48,489 nucleotides of DNA from Gammaproteobacteria bacterium (lineage in GTDB: Bacteria; Pseudomonadota; Gammaproteobacteria; 21-64-14). Below the pieces are notes generated by a model that had not been told where the DNA came from, ran no database searches, and saw nothing but the letters and a program-made list of their open reading frames with translations. Both the position numbers and the translations under genes were made by a program. Below are positions 1 to 7,229 of the stretch, one piece after another. The stretch covers positions 1-48,489 of the forward strand of contig JALUXX010000047.1 of assembly GCA_027013145.1 (NCBI GenBank), in the 5' to 3' direction. Every line of letters starts with the position of its first letter. The first letter of the stretch is position 1.

Positions 1-33
1 CAGATCCAACCCAATCACGCTAAGCTCACCCAT
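1..33 (-). mobile_element. IS110-family transposase, N-terminal fragment cut by window edge
   Basis: Only the first 11 codons are visible, reading MGELSVIGLDL on the minus strand. The pattern V-I-G-L-D-L at the very N-terminus is the first RuvC-like (DEDD) strand of IS110/IS1111-family transposases, and the Asp would be the first catalytic residue. The ATG at 33-31 is preceded by an excellent ribosome binding site (GGAGGAG, seven bases upstream counting the spacer ACC). The rest of the gene lies outside the window. With so few residues the family call rests on the motif and on the long non-coding leader, which fits IS110 elements. Another DEDD-type enzyme is possible but less likely. Confidence 0.6.
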
Positions 34-248: not shown

Positions 249-605
249 CTAGCCCGTCCGCGTGCGCCGGCGCACCTGATCGACATCGCGCGCGCAGATG
301 AACGGCGGCGGCCCGGTCAACAGGTGCGAGAGCGCGAACGCCGCCTCCGGCTGCATGTTCACCGTCACCAGGTCGATGCCGGAGATGCGGCACGCTCCGT
401 GCAACGCGGTGAGCCAGCGGAAGTACACCTCGTCGAGCAACGGGACATTCTTGAGATCGTACAGCAGGCGCCGCGCCGAATGGACCTGCAGGACCTGCAG
501 CACCGGGACGAGGTAGGCGGCCGGGTCGGCCGGATCGAGCCCGGTGCCCGGCTCCAGGAGGACGTTGCCGTCCCCGATGGGTGTCAGGTGCATGCCCTGG
601 ATCAT
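249..605 (-). CDS. Small STAS-domain protein, RsbS-like, with Glu at the phospho-site
   Basis: This 118-residue protein is essentially one STAS domain, the size of RsbS scaffold proteins of stressosomes. It follows the RsbR-type gene by 45 bases on the same strand. The core strand-helix reads D50-L-K-N-V-P-L-L-D58-E59, and aligns without gaps to D215...D223-S224 of the neighbouring RsbR-type protein. E59 thus sits where RsbS/RsbR proteins carry the Ser/Thr phosphorylated by RsbT. A second usual Thr (in TGIxP) is Val-Asn here (V82, N83). The protein may be a constitutive phospho-mimic or an unphosphorylatable cap. Start is ATG at 605; an in-frame ATG at 593 is an alternative. The C-terminus is complete, so the nearby IS110 has not truncated it. 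A SpoIIAA-like role is the other option. Confidence 0.65.
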   Translation of the reverse strand: MIQGMHLTPIGDGNVLLEPGTGLDPADPAAYLVPVLQVLQVHSARRLLYDLKNVPLLDEVYFRWLTALHGACRISGIDLVTVNMQPEAAFALSHLLTGPPPFICARDVDQVRRRTRTG

Positions 606-650
606 CGCCCGTCTCGTCCCTGCGCCGCGGCCCGGCCGGCGGCGGATCGC

Positions 651-1541
651 CTAGGGCAGGGCAGCGTCGGCGGGGCTCACATGCACGCCCATGCGCCGGA
701 ACGCCTCCTTGAGCCCTTCCGACAGCGTCGATCGCGTGGTCACGCCGCCGAGGTCGATGTTGAGGCTGGTGAGCGCGCGCGCGATCTCGGGGCGGATGCC
801 GGTGATCACCGCGCTCGCGCCCATGAGGCCGACCGCGCGGATCATCTGGATGATGTGGTGCGAGACCTGCGAGTCGATGGTGATCACGCCGGTCACGTCG
901 ATCACCACCACACTGGCGCGGTCCTGCTCGATGCGCGTGAGCAGCTTCTCCATCACCATCATGGTGCGCTGCGAATCCAGCGTCCCGATGATCGGCAGCG
1001 TGAGCACCCCGTCCCAGATCTCCGTGATCGGTGTGGAGGTCTGGCGCAGCTCCTCCTGCTGCGCCTCGATGGTACGCTCCTTCTCCTCGAGATAGACGTG
1101 AAAGACGTCGAGCACGATATCGTTGAACACCGAGGCCAGCAGGACCAGGATCTGGCGGCTGGTGGCGAAATCGGCGCCCGCATCCGCCTGCAGATTGTCG
1201 AGGAAGACGCGCTGCAGGAACTGGATGTAGCGGACGAATTCGTCCATGTCGCCGCCGCGGAGCTGGATCTGGCGCGAGAGGTTGGTGAAGAACTTCTTCA
1301 GCGCCTTGAACTCCGGCCCGCGCCGGTCGATCTTCTCGCCGGCCTGCAGGACCATGACGAAGAGTTCCAGGAACTCCAGGCTGTAGTCGTTGATCTCCTC
1401 GTTGGTGAGGATGTTGGCGTGACCGAAGATGCTCTGGCCTTCCTTCTCGATGATCGCGGAGATCTTGCCCACGTTGACCATCAACTGCTCGATGAGCACC
1501 TGGCTGGTGGCCTTGGCGGCGGCCGTCTCTTTCCTTGCCAT
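651..1541 (-). CDS. RsbR-type stressosome protein (RsbRD N-domain + STAS)
   Basis: A 296-residue protein with two parts. Residues about 15-150 are helical and match the RsbR N-terminal sensory fold; residues 150-168 are a charged helix rich in Glu and Gln. From residue 170 a full STAS domain begins with TPITEIWDGVLTLPIIG. The STAS core has IDVTGVITIDS with S224 at the usual first phosphorylation site, and ITGIRPEIA with T247. In known stressosomes RsbR and RsbS build a large complex that holds the RsbT kinase and releases it under stress. The start ATG at 1541 lies two bases after the stop of the kinase-phosphatase gene, so the two are probably translationally coupled. What the N-domain senses cannot be told from sequence. 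Confidence 0.85.
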   Translation of the reverse strand: MARKETAAAKATSQVLIEQLMVNVGKISAIIEKEGQSIFGHANILTNEEINDYSLEFLELFVMVLQAGEKIDRRGPEFKALKKFFTNLSRQIQLRGGDMDEFVRYIQFLQRVFLDNLQADAGADFATSRQILVLLASVFNDIVLDVFHVYLEEKERTIEAQQEELRQTSTPITEIWDGVLTLPIIGTLDSQRTMMVMEKLLTRIEQDRASVVVIDVTGVITIDSQVSHHIIQMIRAVGLMGASAVITGIRPEIARALTSLNIDLGGVTTRSTLSEGLKEAFRRMGVHVSPADAALP

Positions 1542-1543
1542 CG

Positions 1544-2575
1544 CTAATCCCCCTTCTTGGGTTTCACGCGAATTGCGAATACGGACTGATCGTCGTTGGA
1601 ACGCCCGGCCGCCGCTCCCAGAACGAGGGCGATGATCTGCGGGTGCAGGCGCCACAGCCCGGGGAAGGTCTGCAGACCCCAGTTGCGGCGCAGACCGTCG
1701 GAGGCGGTGATCATCAGCGCCTGGCGCGGGAACGGCACGACGGTGGATTCGAGGCTGCGGTGGGAGTGACCGAGGATCCCCGGCGAGAAGGAGACCACGC
1801 GCTTCTGGCCGTTGCTGATGAGGAAGGCCGCCATGTCACCGACGCCGCAGATGGCCCCGCTGCCGCTCGCCGCGTCCAGGCCCACGGCCATCGCCACCGC
1901 CCCGCGGGTCCCGCGCAGCCGCGCGCTCAGATCGGCGATGATCTCCTCGAGCGCGCGTTCGCCGGCATCGAGCAGGGTCCCCTTGTCTTCGACCACGGCG
2001 GCCGCCTCGGCGCCGTGGCCGAGCCCGTCCATGTGCAGCCAGCGTACGGTGCCGTTGCGCAGGCGCAGGCAGATGCAGTCGCCGTTGTACGCCCCGCCCT
2101 GGTAGGCGCGCAGATAGCTGCCGAACTCGTAGACCGAGGCGTTCGGGCGCTCGTCGGGATAGAACCGTGCCCAGGCGGCGAAACCGTGCCAGGGCGACTC
2201 CGGCTCCAGGCCCTTGGGCAGCGTGTAGAACTCGCTCTCATGGGCGAGCCGGCGGATCGCCCCGAGCCCCTTCCCGAGGCTGCCCGAGGTGCTGAAGCCG
2301 TCCTCCATGGCCGCGGGCAGGTTGAACACGCCAGGGCCGCGGTCGACCGCGAACAGGTCGAGCGCCGGGCGCGGCTCCTGCGTCTCCCACAACTGGACCT
2401 CCCCGCTGCCGAGCGCGTACTTGATCTGGTTGCTCATCATCTCGTTGCAGACCAGCTCCATGCGCTCGCGCGCCACGTCGCGAAAGCCCATGCGCCGCGA
2501 CACCGCGCGCAGCTTCGAGCGCACCAGGACCTGCGCGCTCTCGTCCACGGTCGACTTCTCCAGCAGCAGTTTCAT
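1544..2575 (-). CDS. Fused RsbT-type serine kinase and RsbX/SpoIIE-type phosphatase
   Basis: 343 residues in two domains. Residues 1-130 are an anti-sigma-factor-type GHKL ATPase: N-box E40...N49, G1 box D78-R-G-P-G82, and glycine lid around residues 98-105 (GSLGKGLG). Residues 145-343 are a PPM/SpoIIE phosphatase with metal-ligand positions D165 (NGD), D184 (DGLGHG), the SDGL motif and a late DDQS. RsbT phosphorylates RsbR/RsbS and RsbX removes the phosphates, so this single chain would carry both opposing activities for the stressosome encoded downstream. Start ATG has a GGAAGGG ribosome binding site. Separate rsbT and rsbX genes are the usual arrangement. A similar ATPase-SpoIIE fusion acting on another STAS partner is the alternative reading. 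Confidence 0.8.
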   Translation of the reverse strand: MKLLLEKSTVDESAQVLVRSKLRAVSRRMGFRDVARERMELVCNEMMSNQIKYALGSGEVQLWETQEPRPALDLFAVDRGPGVFNLPAAMEDGFSTSGSLGKGLGAIRRLAHESEFYTLPKGLEPESPWHGFAAWARFYPDERPNASVYEFGSYLRAYQGGAYNGDCICLRLRNGTVRWLHMDGLGHGAEAAAVVEDKGTLLDAGERALEEIIADLSARLRGTRGAVAMAVGLDAASGSGAICGVGDMAAFLISNGQKRVVSFSPGILGHSHRSLESTVVPFPRQALMITASDGLRRNWGLQTFPGLWRLHPQIIALVLGAAAGRSNDDQSVFAIRVKPKKGD

Positions 2576-2600
2576 CGGGTTCCCTTCCGCGGCGGACCCA

Positions 2601-3554
2601 TCAGGCTCCGTCGGCCTGCCGCTGCCGCTCCTCGCCCGCATCGACGGTGATCCGGCCCCGGCCCGCGCGCTTGGAGGCGTACAAGGCCGCGTCCGCGCGC
2701 CCGACCAGCGAATCGATGGTGTCGTCCGGCCGGCGCTCGGCCACGCCGATGCTGACGCGCCCTTCCATCGCCGCGAGCACCCGGCCGGCGATGCGCTCGG
2801 CGATACGGGTCGGCGCACAGACCACGATCGCGAACTCGTCGCCCCCCATGCGACAGGGGAAATCGACGTGCTCGCGCACGGCAGCCCGCATCGCATCGGC
2901 CATGCGCCTGAGGTATTCGTCTCCATACTGATGCCCGTGGGTGTCGTTGATCTCCTTGAATTTGTCCAGATCCAGCAATATCAGGGTGAGGGGCTCGCGC
3001 TGGCGGCGCGTGCGCAGAAAAGTCTCGCGCAAGCGGGCGTCATAGGCGCCGCGATTGAGCAGCCCCGTCAGACTGTCCCTATCGGCACGTTCGATGGATT
3101 CCTGGAGTTCGGCCTGCTTCTTCTGCAGTTCCTCCTGCTTCTCCTGCAGCTCCCGGCGCTTGGCGTCGAGGTCCGCCTCCAGATGCGCCAGATCGGCGGC
3201 GATCTGGCGGTTGCGGCGCATCAGCAGCGCCGTGTCCACCGCCTCGCTGGCCGCGCGCAGGCGCGCCGCGAGCGCGTCCACCGACGCCGCATCGGGCACG
3301 CCGGGGAGCCGGCAGATCCGGTGTTCGCGCCCGCACCACTCCAGCCGCAGTTCGGCGCCCTCGAGCCGGAGGTGGGCCGCGAGCGCCCCCTCGCAGGCCG
3401 CGCAGGCGTCGCGCAACTGCGGCATCAGCCCCAACAGCACCCGGGCCGCCGCGAACGCGCTCCCCTCGAGGGCGCGCACCGCCTCCATGGCGAAGCCGAT
3501 CAGACGCTGCCGGTCGGGCTCGACGATGAGATCGAGTCTAAGGAGTTCCTTCAC
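2601..3554 (-). CDS. Diguanylate cyclase (GGDEF) heading the stressosome operon
   Basis: 317 residues from a GTG at 3554 (GGAGG lies upstream). Residues 1-110 are an unrecognised N-terminal domain with three Cys (51, 54 and 74); 112-155 are a heptad-like coiled coil (EKQEELQKKQAELQES); 160-310 are a GGDEF domain with the intact signature G237-G-D-E-F241 and the substrate-binding DLDKFKEIND segment. The inhibitory site is not canonical: Asp231 is in place but the Arg is one position too early. It would make cyclic di-GMP. It is first in the operon, 25 bases ahead of the kinase-phosphatase, so it is the obvious output enzyme for the stressosome, as in the c-di-GMP-linked stressosome loci of Vibrio. 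A farther in-frame start would add only low-complexity residues. Confidence 0.85.
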   Translation of the reverse strand: MKELLRLDLIVEPDRQRLIGFAMEAVRALEGSAFAAARVLLGLMPQLRDACAACEGALAAHLRLEGAELRLEWCGREHRICRLPGVPDAASVDALAARLRAASEAVDTALLMRRNRQIAADLAHLEADLDAKRRELQEKQEELQKKQAELQESIERADRDSLTGLLNRGAYDARLRETFLRTRRQREPLTLILLDLDKFKEINDTHGHQYGDEYLRRMADAMRAAVREHVDFPCRMGGDEFAIVVCAPTRIAERIAGRVLAAMEGRVSIGVAERRPDDTIDSLVGRADAALYASKRAGRGRITVDAGEERQRQADGA

Positions 3555-3791
3555 CCGCGTGCCCGTCCCTCCCGGCGCCCCCAGGCGCCGCCGCCCGCGC
3601 CCTCGGCGGCCCCCGGAGCCCTCCGGCCGGTCCGCGGGACCCGGGCGCCGCCGAGCGCAGGCCCTGTCCCGGCAAATCCGGCGCCCGTCCTTACCGCTCT
3701 CGATAATCGGCGGAAAACTGATTAACATTAGCCCGCCCCAGAACACGGCGCCGGCGCGGCGCGGGTGCCGGCACCGATCCCGGAGACCTCG

Positions 3792-4115
3792 ATGACCTTT
3801 GTCGTTACAGAGAACTGCATCAAGTGCAAGTACACGGATTGCGTCGAAGTCTGCCCTGTGGACTGTTTCCACGAGGGGCCCAACTTCCTCGTGATCGACC
3901 CCGAGGAGTGCATCGACTGCACCCTGTGCGAACCGGAGTGCCCGGTCTCGGCCATCTTCCCGGAGGATGACGTCCCCGAGGGGCAGGAGCAGTTCCTGGA
4001 ACTGAACGCGGAACTGGCCAAGACCTGGCCGGTCATCAACCAGAAAAAGGACCCCCCGCCGGATGCCGACGAGTGGGACGGGAAGCCGGACAAGCTCCAG
4101 TATCTGGAGCGCTGA
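3792..4115 (+). CDS. fdxA: Seven-iron ferredoxin FdxA
   Basis: 107 residues, the normal length for the FdxA/Azotobacter ferredoxin I family. Cysteines C9, C17 and C50 would hold a 3Fe-4S cluster; C21, C40, C43 and C46 ([12 protein letters not shown]) would hold a 4Fe-4S cluster. The C-terminal half is the family's typical tail ending near PDKLQYLER. It is a small cytoplasmic electron carrier; its partner enzyme is not indicated by the neighbours. The ATG at 3792 follows GGAG by six bases. The 237 bases between this gene and the divergent GGDEF gene (3555-3791) must hold both promoters; a relatively AT-rich patch lies at 3700-3730, but I do not see a convincing consensus pair. Confidence 0.95.
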
Positions 4116-5127: not shown

Positions 5128-6060
5128 TCAACCGCGGGGATGGTGGCGCGCGTGCAGTTCCTTCAGGCGCGCGCGTGCGACGTGCGTATAGATCTGGGTG
5201 GTGGACAGGTCGCTGTGCCCGAGCAGCAGTTGCACGACCCGCAGGTCGGCGCCGTGGTTGAGCAGGTGCGTGGCGAAGGCGTGACGCAGCGTGTGCGGTG
5301 AGATCGGCTTTGTGATCCCGGCGCGCCGCGCGTAGCGCCGCACGGCGTACCAGAAGGCCTGGCGTGACATCGCCGCCGCACGCCGCGTCGGGAACAGGGC
5401 CTCGCAGGCGCGCCCGCGCAGGATCCGCGGGCGCGCCTCGGCGCGGTAGCGCTCGAGCCAGTCCGACGCCTCCTCGCCCAGCGGCACGATGCGTTCGCGT
5501 CCTCCCTTGCCGCGCACCTGGACCACGCCCAGGCGCAGGTTCACCTGCCCGTCCTGCAGGGCCACCAGCTCGGAGACGCGCAGCCCGCAGGCGTAGATCA
5601 ACTCCAGCATCGCCCGGTCCCTCAGTCCCAGGGGCCGCGCGGTGTCCGGCGCCGCGAGCAGGGCCTCGACCTCCGGTTCGGTCAGGGACCGGGGCAACGG
5701 CCGGCCCAGCCTCGGCCCCTCGATCCGCGCGCTGGGATCGACGCCGATGCGCCCCTCCCGCACCAGGTAACGGTAGAAGCGACGCACGCTGGAGAGAAAT
5801 CGCGCCGTGGAGCGCGCCTTGCGTCCCTGCTCCAGCCGCCACGCCAGATGTCGCTGCAGATCCTCGCGACCGGCGGTCTCCAGACCGACGCCCCGGCCGT
5901 GGAGCCACGCCGCGTACTGCAGGAGGTCGGTGCGATAGGCCGCCAGGGTGTTGCGGCTCAGACCGCGCTCCATCCACAGGTGGTCGAGGAAGGCATCGAC
6001 CACGACCGCCGCCGCGGCCCCGCGGCCCGGGTCCCCCGGCTCGGCAAGTGCGCCGGTCAC
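5128..6060 (-). CDS. xerD: Tyrosine recombinase XerD
   Basis: 310 residues. The N-terminal core-binding domain spans about 15-110. The catalytic domain shows the Arg in ACGLRVSEL, Lys in VRGKGGRER, HTLRHAFATHLL, the His in LLGHSDLSTTQIYTH and the Tyr nucleophile in that same motif. The C-terminus LHARHHPRG closely matches XerD rather than XerC. With XerC it resolves chromosome dimers at dif. The start is taken as GTG at 6060, which overlaps the stop of the upstream diguanylate cyclase by four bases (GTGA), implying translational coupling. It ends the nfeD-slipin-cyclase-xerD operon. Confidence 0.92.
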   Translation of the reverse strand: MTGALAEPGDPGRGAAAAVVVDAFLDHLWMERGLSRNTLAAYRTDLLQYAAWLHGRGVGLETAGREDLQRHLAWRLEQGRKARSTARFLSSVRRFYRYLVREGRIGVDPSARIEGPRLGRPLPRSLTEPEVEALLAAPDTARPLGLRDRAMLELIYACGLRVSELVALQDGQVNLRLGVVQVRGKGGRERIVPLGEEASDWLERYRAEARPRILRGRACEALFPTRRAAAMSRQAFWYAVRRYARRAGITKPISPHTLRHAFATHLLNHGADLRVVQLLLGHSDLSTTQIYTHVARARLKELHARHHPRG

Positions 6061-7199
6061 GACGCCGCCGCGCCGTCGCGCGCGGCGTCGGCGGGGGCCC
6101 CCGCGTAGCGCACGCCGCCGCGACCACCCGGACACCCCTTGGCCGCGTACATCGCACGATCGACCGAGTCGAGCATCGCGTCGAGGCTGCGACCGTGGGC
6201 GGGCGCCTCGCCGATGCCGATGGTGACGCCGCACTCGAGCCCCTCGCGCGCCGCCCACGCCGCGAACTCCTCGCGCACCCGCCGGGCGATCCGCTCGGCC
6301 CCCGCGGGCGGCAGATCGGGAAGTACGAGGACGAACTCATCGCCGCCGTAACGCGCCGCGAGGTCGCTGGCCCGGATCGTACGGCGCACGACCTCCGCGA
6401 ACTCGACCAGCACCTGGTCGCCGCGCGCGTGCCCGAGCGTGTCGTTGACGGCCTTGAACCGGTCGAGGTCCGCGAACATCACCACCAGGCGGCGCGAGCC
6501 CGCCGCCACTTCCCGAAACAGCGGGCGCGAGAGCTCGTCCAGCGCACGCCGGTTGAGCAGGCCGGTGAGGTTGTCCTCACAGCTCTTGCGCTCCAACAAG
6601 CGCCGCGCGGATTCCACCCGCCCCATGAGAAAATAGGCATAGACGAGGATGATCGCACCGAACAGATTCAGGAACACGACGCCGGCGCCGATCTGGCCCA
6701 CGGTGCCGCTGTAGCGCAGGCTGAAGGCGATCATCGCGCCGGCGAAGCACCCGACCACGGCTTCGCCGAACAGGCGCATCCCGTAGCGCATGCCGTTGCC
6801 CAGCACGATCATGATGAACACCAGCACCGACGGCGGAATCGGGTTGGGATCGTTGAGCACGGCCACGGTGACCACGACGATGTCCACCCACATCGCGAGG
6901 TGGTAGCGCAGCGGCGAATACGGAACGCGATAGGCGTGCGCGAACATCGCCGTATTGCACAGCACGTAGGCGAGGAACATCACGTTGAGGCCGACGAGCG
7001 GCACCCAGGCGGGGGCCGGAAGTCCCGGGCGATTGAAGAACAACAGCGCGAGGACGAGAAACAGGTAGCGGGTGAGAAACTGGACCCGCTGCTCGGGCCA
7101 GCCGGGTATCCGCGTGCCGGCACGCCCCGGCACCCGCCGGCGGTCGTGCGCACGGCGCCGTTCCCCGCCGCGCCGCTCCCCCCATCGGTGTCGTGCCAT
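6057..7199 (-). CDS. Membrane-bound diguanylate cyclase
   Basis: 380 residues. The first 38 are strongly basic. Residues 40-193 contain five or six hydrophobic helices, an integral membrane sensor of unknown ligand. Residues 205-360 are a GGDEF domain: DLDRFKAVNDTLGH, G285-G-D-E-F289, and an intact inhibitory site R276-A-S-D279 five residues before it. It should therefore be an active, product-inhibited cyclase at the inner membrane. The ATG at 7199 is preceded by AGGGGGG at a good distance; a GTG six bases further up is too close to that site. It lies 30 bases after the slipin gene and overlaps xerD. Confidence 0.9.
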   Translation of the reverse strand: MARHRWGERRGGERRRAHDRRRVPGRAGTRIPGWPEQRVQFLTRYLFLVLALLFFNRPGLPAPAWVPLVGLNVMFLAYVLCNTAMFAHAYRVPYSPLRYHLAMWVDIVVVTVAVLNDPNPIPPSVLVFIMIVLGNGMRYGMRLFGEAVVGCFAGAMIAFSLRYSGTVGQIGAGVVFLNLFGAIILVYAYFLMGRVESARRLLERKSCEDNLTGLLNRRALDELSRPLFREVAAGSRRLVVMFADLDRFKAVNDTLGHARGDQVLVEFAEVVRRTIRASDLAARYGGDEFVLVLPDLPPAGAERIARRVREEFAAWAAREGLECGVTIGIGEAPAHGRSLDAMLDSVDRAMYAAKGCPGGRGGVRYAGAPADAARDGAAAS

Positions 7200-7229
7200 C
7201 GTCACCCCCCTGTCGTTCGGCCCGCGTCC

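Follow-up and report, generated by a model that had tools for sequence, protein, structure and literature searches.

A stressosome-derived operon pairs a serine-less RsbS with a diguanylate cyclase carrying a putative pseudo-RsbT domain

Genes and conservation of the operon

The window analysed here is one whole contig (C47; JALUXX010000047.1 of assembly GCA_027013145.1, 48,489 nucleotides) from a gammaproteobacterium of the 21-64-14 lineage, and its positions 249 to 3,554 hold a compact operon of stressosome-type genes with a diguanylate cyclase (DGC) as the apparent output. The four open reading frames (ORFs) all lie on the minus strand and are separated by 25, 2 and 45 bases, as an earlier sequence-only reading of the window had recorded. 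The first encodes the DGC (2601–3554; 317 amino acids, GTG start), which is composed of an N-terminal domain that we term a pseudo-RsbT domain, a coiled-coil helix of ∼50 residues and a GGDEF domain. It is followed by TX (1544–2575), an RsbT-type kinase (residues 1 to ∼140) fused to an RsbX-type PP2C phosphatase (residues ∼150–334), by an RsbR-type protein (R; 651–1541) with an N-terminal helical sensor and a STAS domain, and by an RsbS-family STAS protein (S; 249–605) that lacks the phosphoacceptor of RsbS. Pfam and profile matches agree with the identities first assigned to these genes (GGDEF, kinase-phosphatase, RsbR-type and RsbS-like), and the layout then described, with output first, scaffold last and the kinase fused to the phosphatase, is conserved. 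No sigma factor or anti-sigma gene follows the operon within the window, leaving the DGC as the only linked effector, also in line with that reading. The first base of the contig lies just past the operon, and the next gene downstream is therefore outside view.

A search for the same gene order in other genomes, which the sequence-only reading had proposed as a check, recovered 28 more gamma- and betaproteobacterial loci in which all four genes, DGC, TX, R and S, stand in this order on a single strand. These came from a scan of genome contigs and from sampled whole genomes, and include a few near-copies (for example L008 and L009). Because order and strand are identical in 28 other loci, the arrangement is not the product of chance. 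Named carriers of the module include bacterium BMS3Bbin13, which belongs to the genus of the window, as well as Sulfuricella, Sulfurimicrobium and Gallionella; fragments with R and S were obtained from Thiobacillus and Sulfuricella. The module is present in 15 of 369 sampled genomes of the class. Across the same sample the N-terminal domain of the DGC occurs in 15 genomes, one copy in each and never apart from the module, and all 15 are among the 16 genomes that match the TX profile. Two module carriers (G027 and G475) also encode a canonical, serine-containing RsbS elsewhere in the genome, which in G027 belongs to an R-S-T-X operon that is complete and includes a histidine kinase with RsbU_N.

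In Sulfuricella-type loci a gene for a type IV pilus ATPase of the PilT/PilU family is located directly downstream of the operon (L020, 9253–10404 on the plus strand; L017, L021, L015 and L025) or is a neighbour on the other strand (L016 and L019), with a match to the NCBIfam model TIGR01420 in L020 and L025. This association hints at surface motility or attachment. It also raises the alternative that the DGC is merely co-transcribed and that R, S and TX act on something downstream, such as the ATPase encoded next to S, since a gene of this family adjoins the operon in several betaproteobacterial loci. We regard this as very improbable, because every complete locus (28 of 28) includes the DGC and its distinctive N-terminal domain is confined to such loci, and because the pilus gene is a lineage-specific neighbour that is sometimes on the opposite strand.

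Predicted activities and phosphosites of TX, R and S

TX matches the Pfam families HATPase_c_2 (E 1.4e-6) and SpoIIE (1.8e-5), both above the cut-offs. Among solved structures its phosphatase half has its best match in 3zt9 (E 3.8e-12), which we take to be Moorella MtX. A profile of the kinase half matches RsbW at 1.7e-3, and this half is 33–36% identical to RsbT of G027 (E 5e-14 and 1e-10). The N-box Glu and Asn, the DxGxG and GxG motifs and the PP2C Asp residues are invariant in 29 of 29 sequences. A single fusion protein combines the features of an RsbT kinase with those of an RsbX phosphatase, and on these residues it is predicted to be active in both respects.

R contains a Pfam STAS domain (6.5e-13) and a weak RsbRD_N match (6e-4) that is below the cut-off and shared by 17 of 19 members; against stressosome RsbR in the Protein Data Bank it scores between 5e-31 and 6e-30. 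The equivalents of the phosphosites T171 and T205 are T187 (codon 981–983) and S224 (codon 870–872), and each is Thr or Ser in all 30 sequences. R has the N-terminal sensor, the STAS domain and the two phosphosites of an RsbR.

By itself S gives only a weak Pfam STAS match, under the cut-off (0.032). When a profile of 19 orthologues was compared with solved structures, Listeria RsbS (E 3.7e-4) and then a Bacillus-type RsbS (7e-4) were the top matches, which bears out the original label of 'RsbS-like' and identifies S as a single-STAS protein of the RsbS family. The residue aligned with Ser59, the phosphoacceptor that acts as the release switch in RsbS, is Glu59 (codon 429–431, minus strand). 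Across 30 orthologues this position is occupied by Pro (10), Glu (4), Arg (4), Gln (3), Asn (2), Thr (2) and others, and never by Ser, while flanking residues are retained (Asp58 in 27 of 30 and Tyr61 in 29 of 30); canonical RsbS proteins of the same class have the serine in eight of eight cases. Since this phosphoserine is missing, we classify the system as a variant derived from the stressosome rather than a stressosome in the plain sense.

A putative pseudo-RsbT domain on the diguanylate cyclase

The GGDEF domain (2655–3086, minus strand) matches Pfam at E 1.8e-33 and has an intact catalytic motif, the GGDEF and metal-site Asp residues being invariant in 30 orthologues; the canonical RxxD inhibitory site is absent and RxxVD is found there instead. 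The AlphaFold2 model of the complete DGC has a predicted local distance difference test score (pLDDT) of 90.8, and a fold search with it returned GGDEF proteins only, with SiaD first. AlphaFold2 secondary structure places a linker helix at residues 108–158 (3081–3233, minus strand), leading from the pseudo-RsbT domain of residues 1–88 (3291–3554, minus strand) to the GGDEF domain.

No Pfam family matches the N-terminal domain. AlphaFold2 models residues 1–106 with a pLDDT of 96.9 as a beta-alpha-alpha-beta-beta-beta-alpha arrangement, which resembles the fold of the N-terminal half of a Bergerat domain. Foldseek returned no match for it (best E 0.32, sliding clamps). In a second look with VIA-align, two RsbW structures were aligned over 82 residues (Z 8.5 and 8.4, root-mean-square deviation 2.1 and 2.0) and ranks 1–8 were all partner-switching kinases (RsbW, SpoIIAB, UsfX and SiaB; Z 6.3–8.5). 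The next ranks went to a designed protein (Z 5.5) and a Leptospira response regulator (5.4), and all further matches scored 4.4 or less. Because Z values under ∼8 are common background, a bridge at the level of sequence was sought: clusters containing relatives of TX were fetched from the phylum, and a profile of the N-terminal domain was compared with every ORF in 24 stressosome loci. Exactly one ORF was matched, the effector of L163, through its RsbT-like domain (E 1.3e-5, collinear), and the reversed-sequence control was negative.

When aligned, the RsbT N-box 'ELARN' corresponds to 'PQLRD' of the window DGC. The Arg of the N-box is kept in 28 of 30 orthologues and the positions of the catalytic Glu and Asn vary; overall the ATP-site motifs (N-box Glu/Asn and DxGxG) are variable or absent. 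As an RsbT-like match is combined with loss of the catalytic N-box residues, we refer to the domain as pseudo-RsbT, a putative pseudokinase of degenerate RsbT/RsbW type (Bergerat-like, without an ATP site), and propose that it serves in docking. This domain and the absence of the RsbS phosphosite from every orthologue had both escaped the sequence-only reading.

RsbU_N was considered as an identity for the same region and rejected, as none of 24 orthologues has a Pfam match and the model is alpha/beta and not a four-helix bundle. The effector is accordingly not of the Bacillus RsbU or Moorella MtG type with a four-helix RsbU_N domain. No RsbU_N was detected anywhere in the host genome by a search that did find the Bacillus control and the canonical cluster of G027.

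The possibility that TX phosphorylates the DGC directly, as has been suggested for a sensor kinase downstream in Vibrio, with the STAS proteins merely tuning TX, has some precedent: phosphorylation by RsbT has been proposed for effectors without RsbU_N (PMC9237108), and PMC4976288 describes the Moorella case as phosphorylation of the DGC. For the present system it appears improbable, given that the N-terminal domain has no invariant Ser or Thr (only E12 and D14 are invariant) and that its RsbT-like fold would be left unexplained.

Loss of the RsbS serine in fusion-only modules

Fusion of the kinase to the phosphatase had been taken for a peculiarity of this operon. The fusion stands but its uniqueness does not, since other proteobacteria commonly have it too, in clusters of the types R-S-T-TX and R-S-TX. 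What does vary with gene content is the RsbS site. All 20 sampled clusters with a stand-alone RsbT have Ser (19 clusters) or Thr (one) there, and in modules that have only the fusion Ser occurs in none of 34, made up of 30 modules of the DGC type (2 with Thr) and four belonging to a second type with the order R-S-TX. In L055, L166 and L167 the following gene can be seen and encodes a sensor kinase; L164 runs off its contig. The first three have Gln or Tyr at the RsbS site. Their effectors are hybrid or PAS sensor kinases (L055, 2624–4618, minus strand; L166, 5866–8373, plus strand; L167, 2547–5036, plus strand), and the N terminus of each looks like a degenerate RsbT domain whose N-box residues are lost. 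Loss of the RsbS serine thus accompanies loss of the stand-alone RsbT. A tree of TX separates the two fusion-only types without rejecting a single origin (approximately unbiased test, p-AU 0.125), so the serine counts are not independent events; separate origins of serine loss in the two types were considered and are not established at this value.

Nine effector sensor kinases downstream of R-S-T-TX (L067, L154–L159, L161 and L163) begin with an intact RsbT-like domain, which makes fusion of a T domain to an output a recurrent design. Carrying an RsbT-like domain may be how effectors without RsbU_N are generally connected to a stressosome.

These patterns bear on a mechanism of the classical kind, in which stress would cause TX to leave the R-S core and bind the N-terminal domain of the DGC, a kinase/pseudokinase pair taking the place of RsbT and RsbU_N, and so activate the cyclase as in Moorella. 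The kinase residues of TX are intact, and SpoIIAB/RsbW-type kinases dimerise, so that TX and the pseudo-RsbT domain could pair. Moorella MtT and MtG also offer a precedent, as cited in PMC12143880 and PMC4976288. We nevertheless judge this mechanism rather unlikely, as the serine of S that triggers release of RsbT is absent in 30 of 30 sequences, RsbU_N is found neither in the DGC nor in the genome, and the kinase would be tied to the very phosphatase expected to reset it.

Proposed mechanism

The reading that we consider the probable one is that the operon encodes a stressosome-derived partner-switching module which feeds the DGC, and that the DGC docks on a STAS core by way of its pseudo-RsbT domain. 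A linked module is supported by the confinement of that domain to genomes with TX, by the kept gene order and by the intact sites of R and TX. Docking is favoured by the kinase-like fold and profile match of the domain, by the nine effectors that start with a T domain, by the absence of the RsbS serine wherever RsbT occurs only as a fusion, and by the lack of RsbU_N. The classical sequence, in which phosphorylated RsbS releases RsbT and RsbT binds RsbU_N, does not fit, because the phosphosite of S is gone and the DGC carries what appears to be a degenerate RsbT/RsbW-type domain.

By homology, R and S would build the STAS core, with the N-terminal domains of R as sensors. TX would act in both directions: the RsbT-type half would phosphorylate R (T187 and/or S224) and the RsbX-type half would dephosphorylate it, as the conservation of the sites and of the catalytic residues suggests. 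S could not be phosphorylated at the usual serine, and the classical release of RsbT by phosphorylated RsbS would consequently be absent or altered. The pseudo-RsbT domain would dock on the core in the place of a kinase, with S as the likeliest seat, and the phosphorylation state of R would set its occupancy and thereby whether the DGC is retained there or let go, to form a dimer via its coiled coil and synthesise cyclic di-GMP (c-di-GMP). We infer the physical contacts in this scheme, including the docking partner, and likewise the gating of the cyclase and the sign of its control. More tentatively, the operon could represent a class of module in which a dead copy of RsbT on the effector sits on a dead RsbS substrate, so that what gates the output is a docked pseudokinase rather than a released kinase, with the same design serving a cyclase here and sensor kinases in L055, L166 and L167.

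Several points weigh against the docking mechanism. Z values of 7–8 are a common background level for VIA-align, and the best value of 8.5 is close to it. Comparison of the N-terminal domain with the TX kinase by hhalign, by global hhalign and by a home-made profile alignment gave nothing above controls, and the proposed kinship with the kinases is a remote-homology claim resting on a predicted fold and one sequence intermediate. The argument from the serine is weakened by RsbS of Vibrio brasiliensis, in which the Bacillus sites are not conserved and which is nonetheless weakly phosphorylated (PMC4976288); other residues of S, such as the conserved Tyr61, could act as phosphoacceptor. Finally, the host genome encodes 42 GGDEF domains.

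If the docking reading is true, a pseudokinase-docking class would explain how a stressosome can act on effectors without RsbU_N, and the operon would be a second link between stress sensing and c-di-GMP in bacteria that oxidise sulfur and iron. The joint disappearance of the RsbS serine and the stand-alone RsbT is a natural test of which phosphorylations a stressosome requires.

Genomic setting

The host genome (3.3 Mb, 99.9% complete) has only four Pfam STAS matches, namely R, an MlaB-like protein and two in long frames, and no RsbV-like STAS protein was found in it beyond the operon apart from the MlaB-like one. Those of the other HATPase_c_2 matches that were inspected, not every match having been read, are histidine kinases. 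The RsbV, RsbW and sigma factor of a sigma-B cascade were not found downstream. At the contig start, positions 1–33 (minus strand) encode MGELSVIGLDL, which, read by eye and without a search, we take to be the start of an IS110-like transposase; a repeat of this type probably broke the assembly there. A ferredoxin-like gene (3765–4115, plus strand) is divergent from the DGC gene and shares with it a short intergenic region. A second GGDEF protein, with a hydrophobic N terminus, is encoded 2.5 kb upstream of the operon (6057–7205, minus strand).

Comparison with known systems

A stressosome with c-di-GMP as output, which the sequence-only reading had thought unusual, is already known from Moorella and has been proposed for several Gram-negative bacteria (PMC12143880, PMC4976288, PMC9237108). 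What we believe to be new are the putative pseudo-RsbT domain on the DGC, the combination of a serine-less RsbS with intact sites in R and TX, and the relation between the RsbS serine and a stand-alone RsbT. Among the openly available papers searched, none was found to describe an RsbT-like or pseudo-RsbT domain on the effector of a stressosome or on a GGDEF protein.

Control of a DGC by protein binding is also seen in SiaABCD of Pseudomonas aeruginosa, where a phosphatase, the Bergerat-fold kinase SiaB and the small regulator SiaC act on the cyclase, although there SiaC is a phospho-switch that binds the stalk of the DGC, RsbR-type sensors are lacking and the DGC carries no pseudokinase (PMC8457831, PMC7647112). 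Against the SiaD model the window DGC scores 116.7 bits, far under the cut-off of 290 bits. A STAS protein likewise controls a DGC in HsbR-HsbA-HsbD and BgrV-BgrR (named in PMC8457831), but as described there the phosphorylated STAS protein is itself the switch and no RsbR/RsbS scaffold is mentioned.

The stressosome of Moorella thermoacetica, MtR-MtS-MtT-MtX with the DGC MtG as output (Quin et al. 2012, cited in PMC12143880 and PMC4976288), shares with the window a STAS scaffold, an RsbT kinase, an RsbX phosphatase, a DGC output and the lack of a sigma factor. It differs in that T and X are separate, the gene order is another, and MtG has RsbU_N and GAF domains where the window DGC has a predicted pseudo-RsbT domain; the window RsbS, moreover, is without the serine. 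RSTX modules followed by GGDEF proteins are listed for Vibrio, Chromobacterium and Herbaspirillum (PMC9237108). These and other RSTX modules resemble the present one in being Gram-negative, in including RsbX and in having linked effectors, GGDEF proteins among them, most of which lack RsbU_N; they differ in the order R-S-T-X then effector, in a globin-coupled RsbR and in a stand-alone RsbT (PMC9237108). The route by which input reaches most of these effectors is described as unknown (PMC9237108). The R-S-T-TX clusters have, like the window, both the T-X fusion and a T-like domain on the effector, but retain a stand-alone T and a Ser or Thr in RsbS, and their effector T domain is intact and coupled to a histidine kinase output. 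A T-like domain on the effector, intact in some operons and seemingly degenerate in others, offers a testable answer to how the signal travels without RsbU_N.

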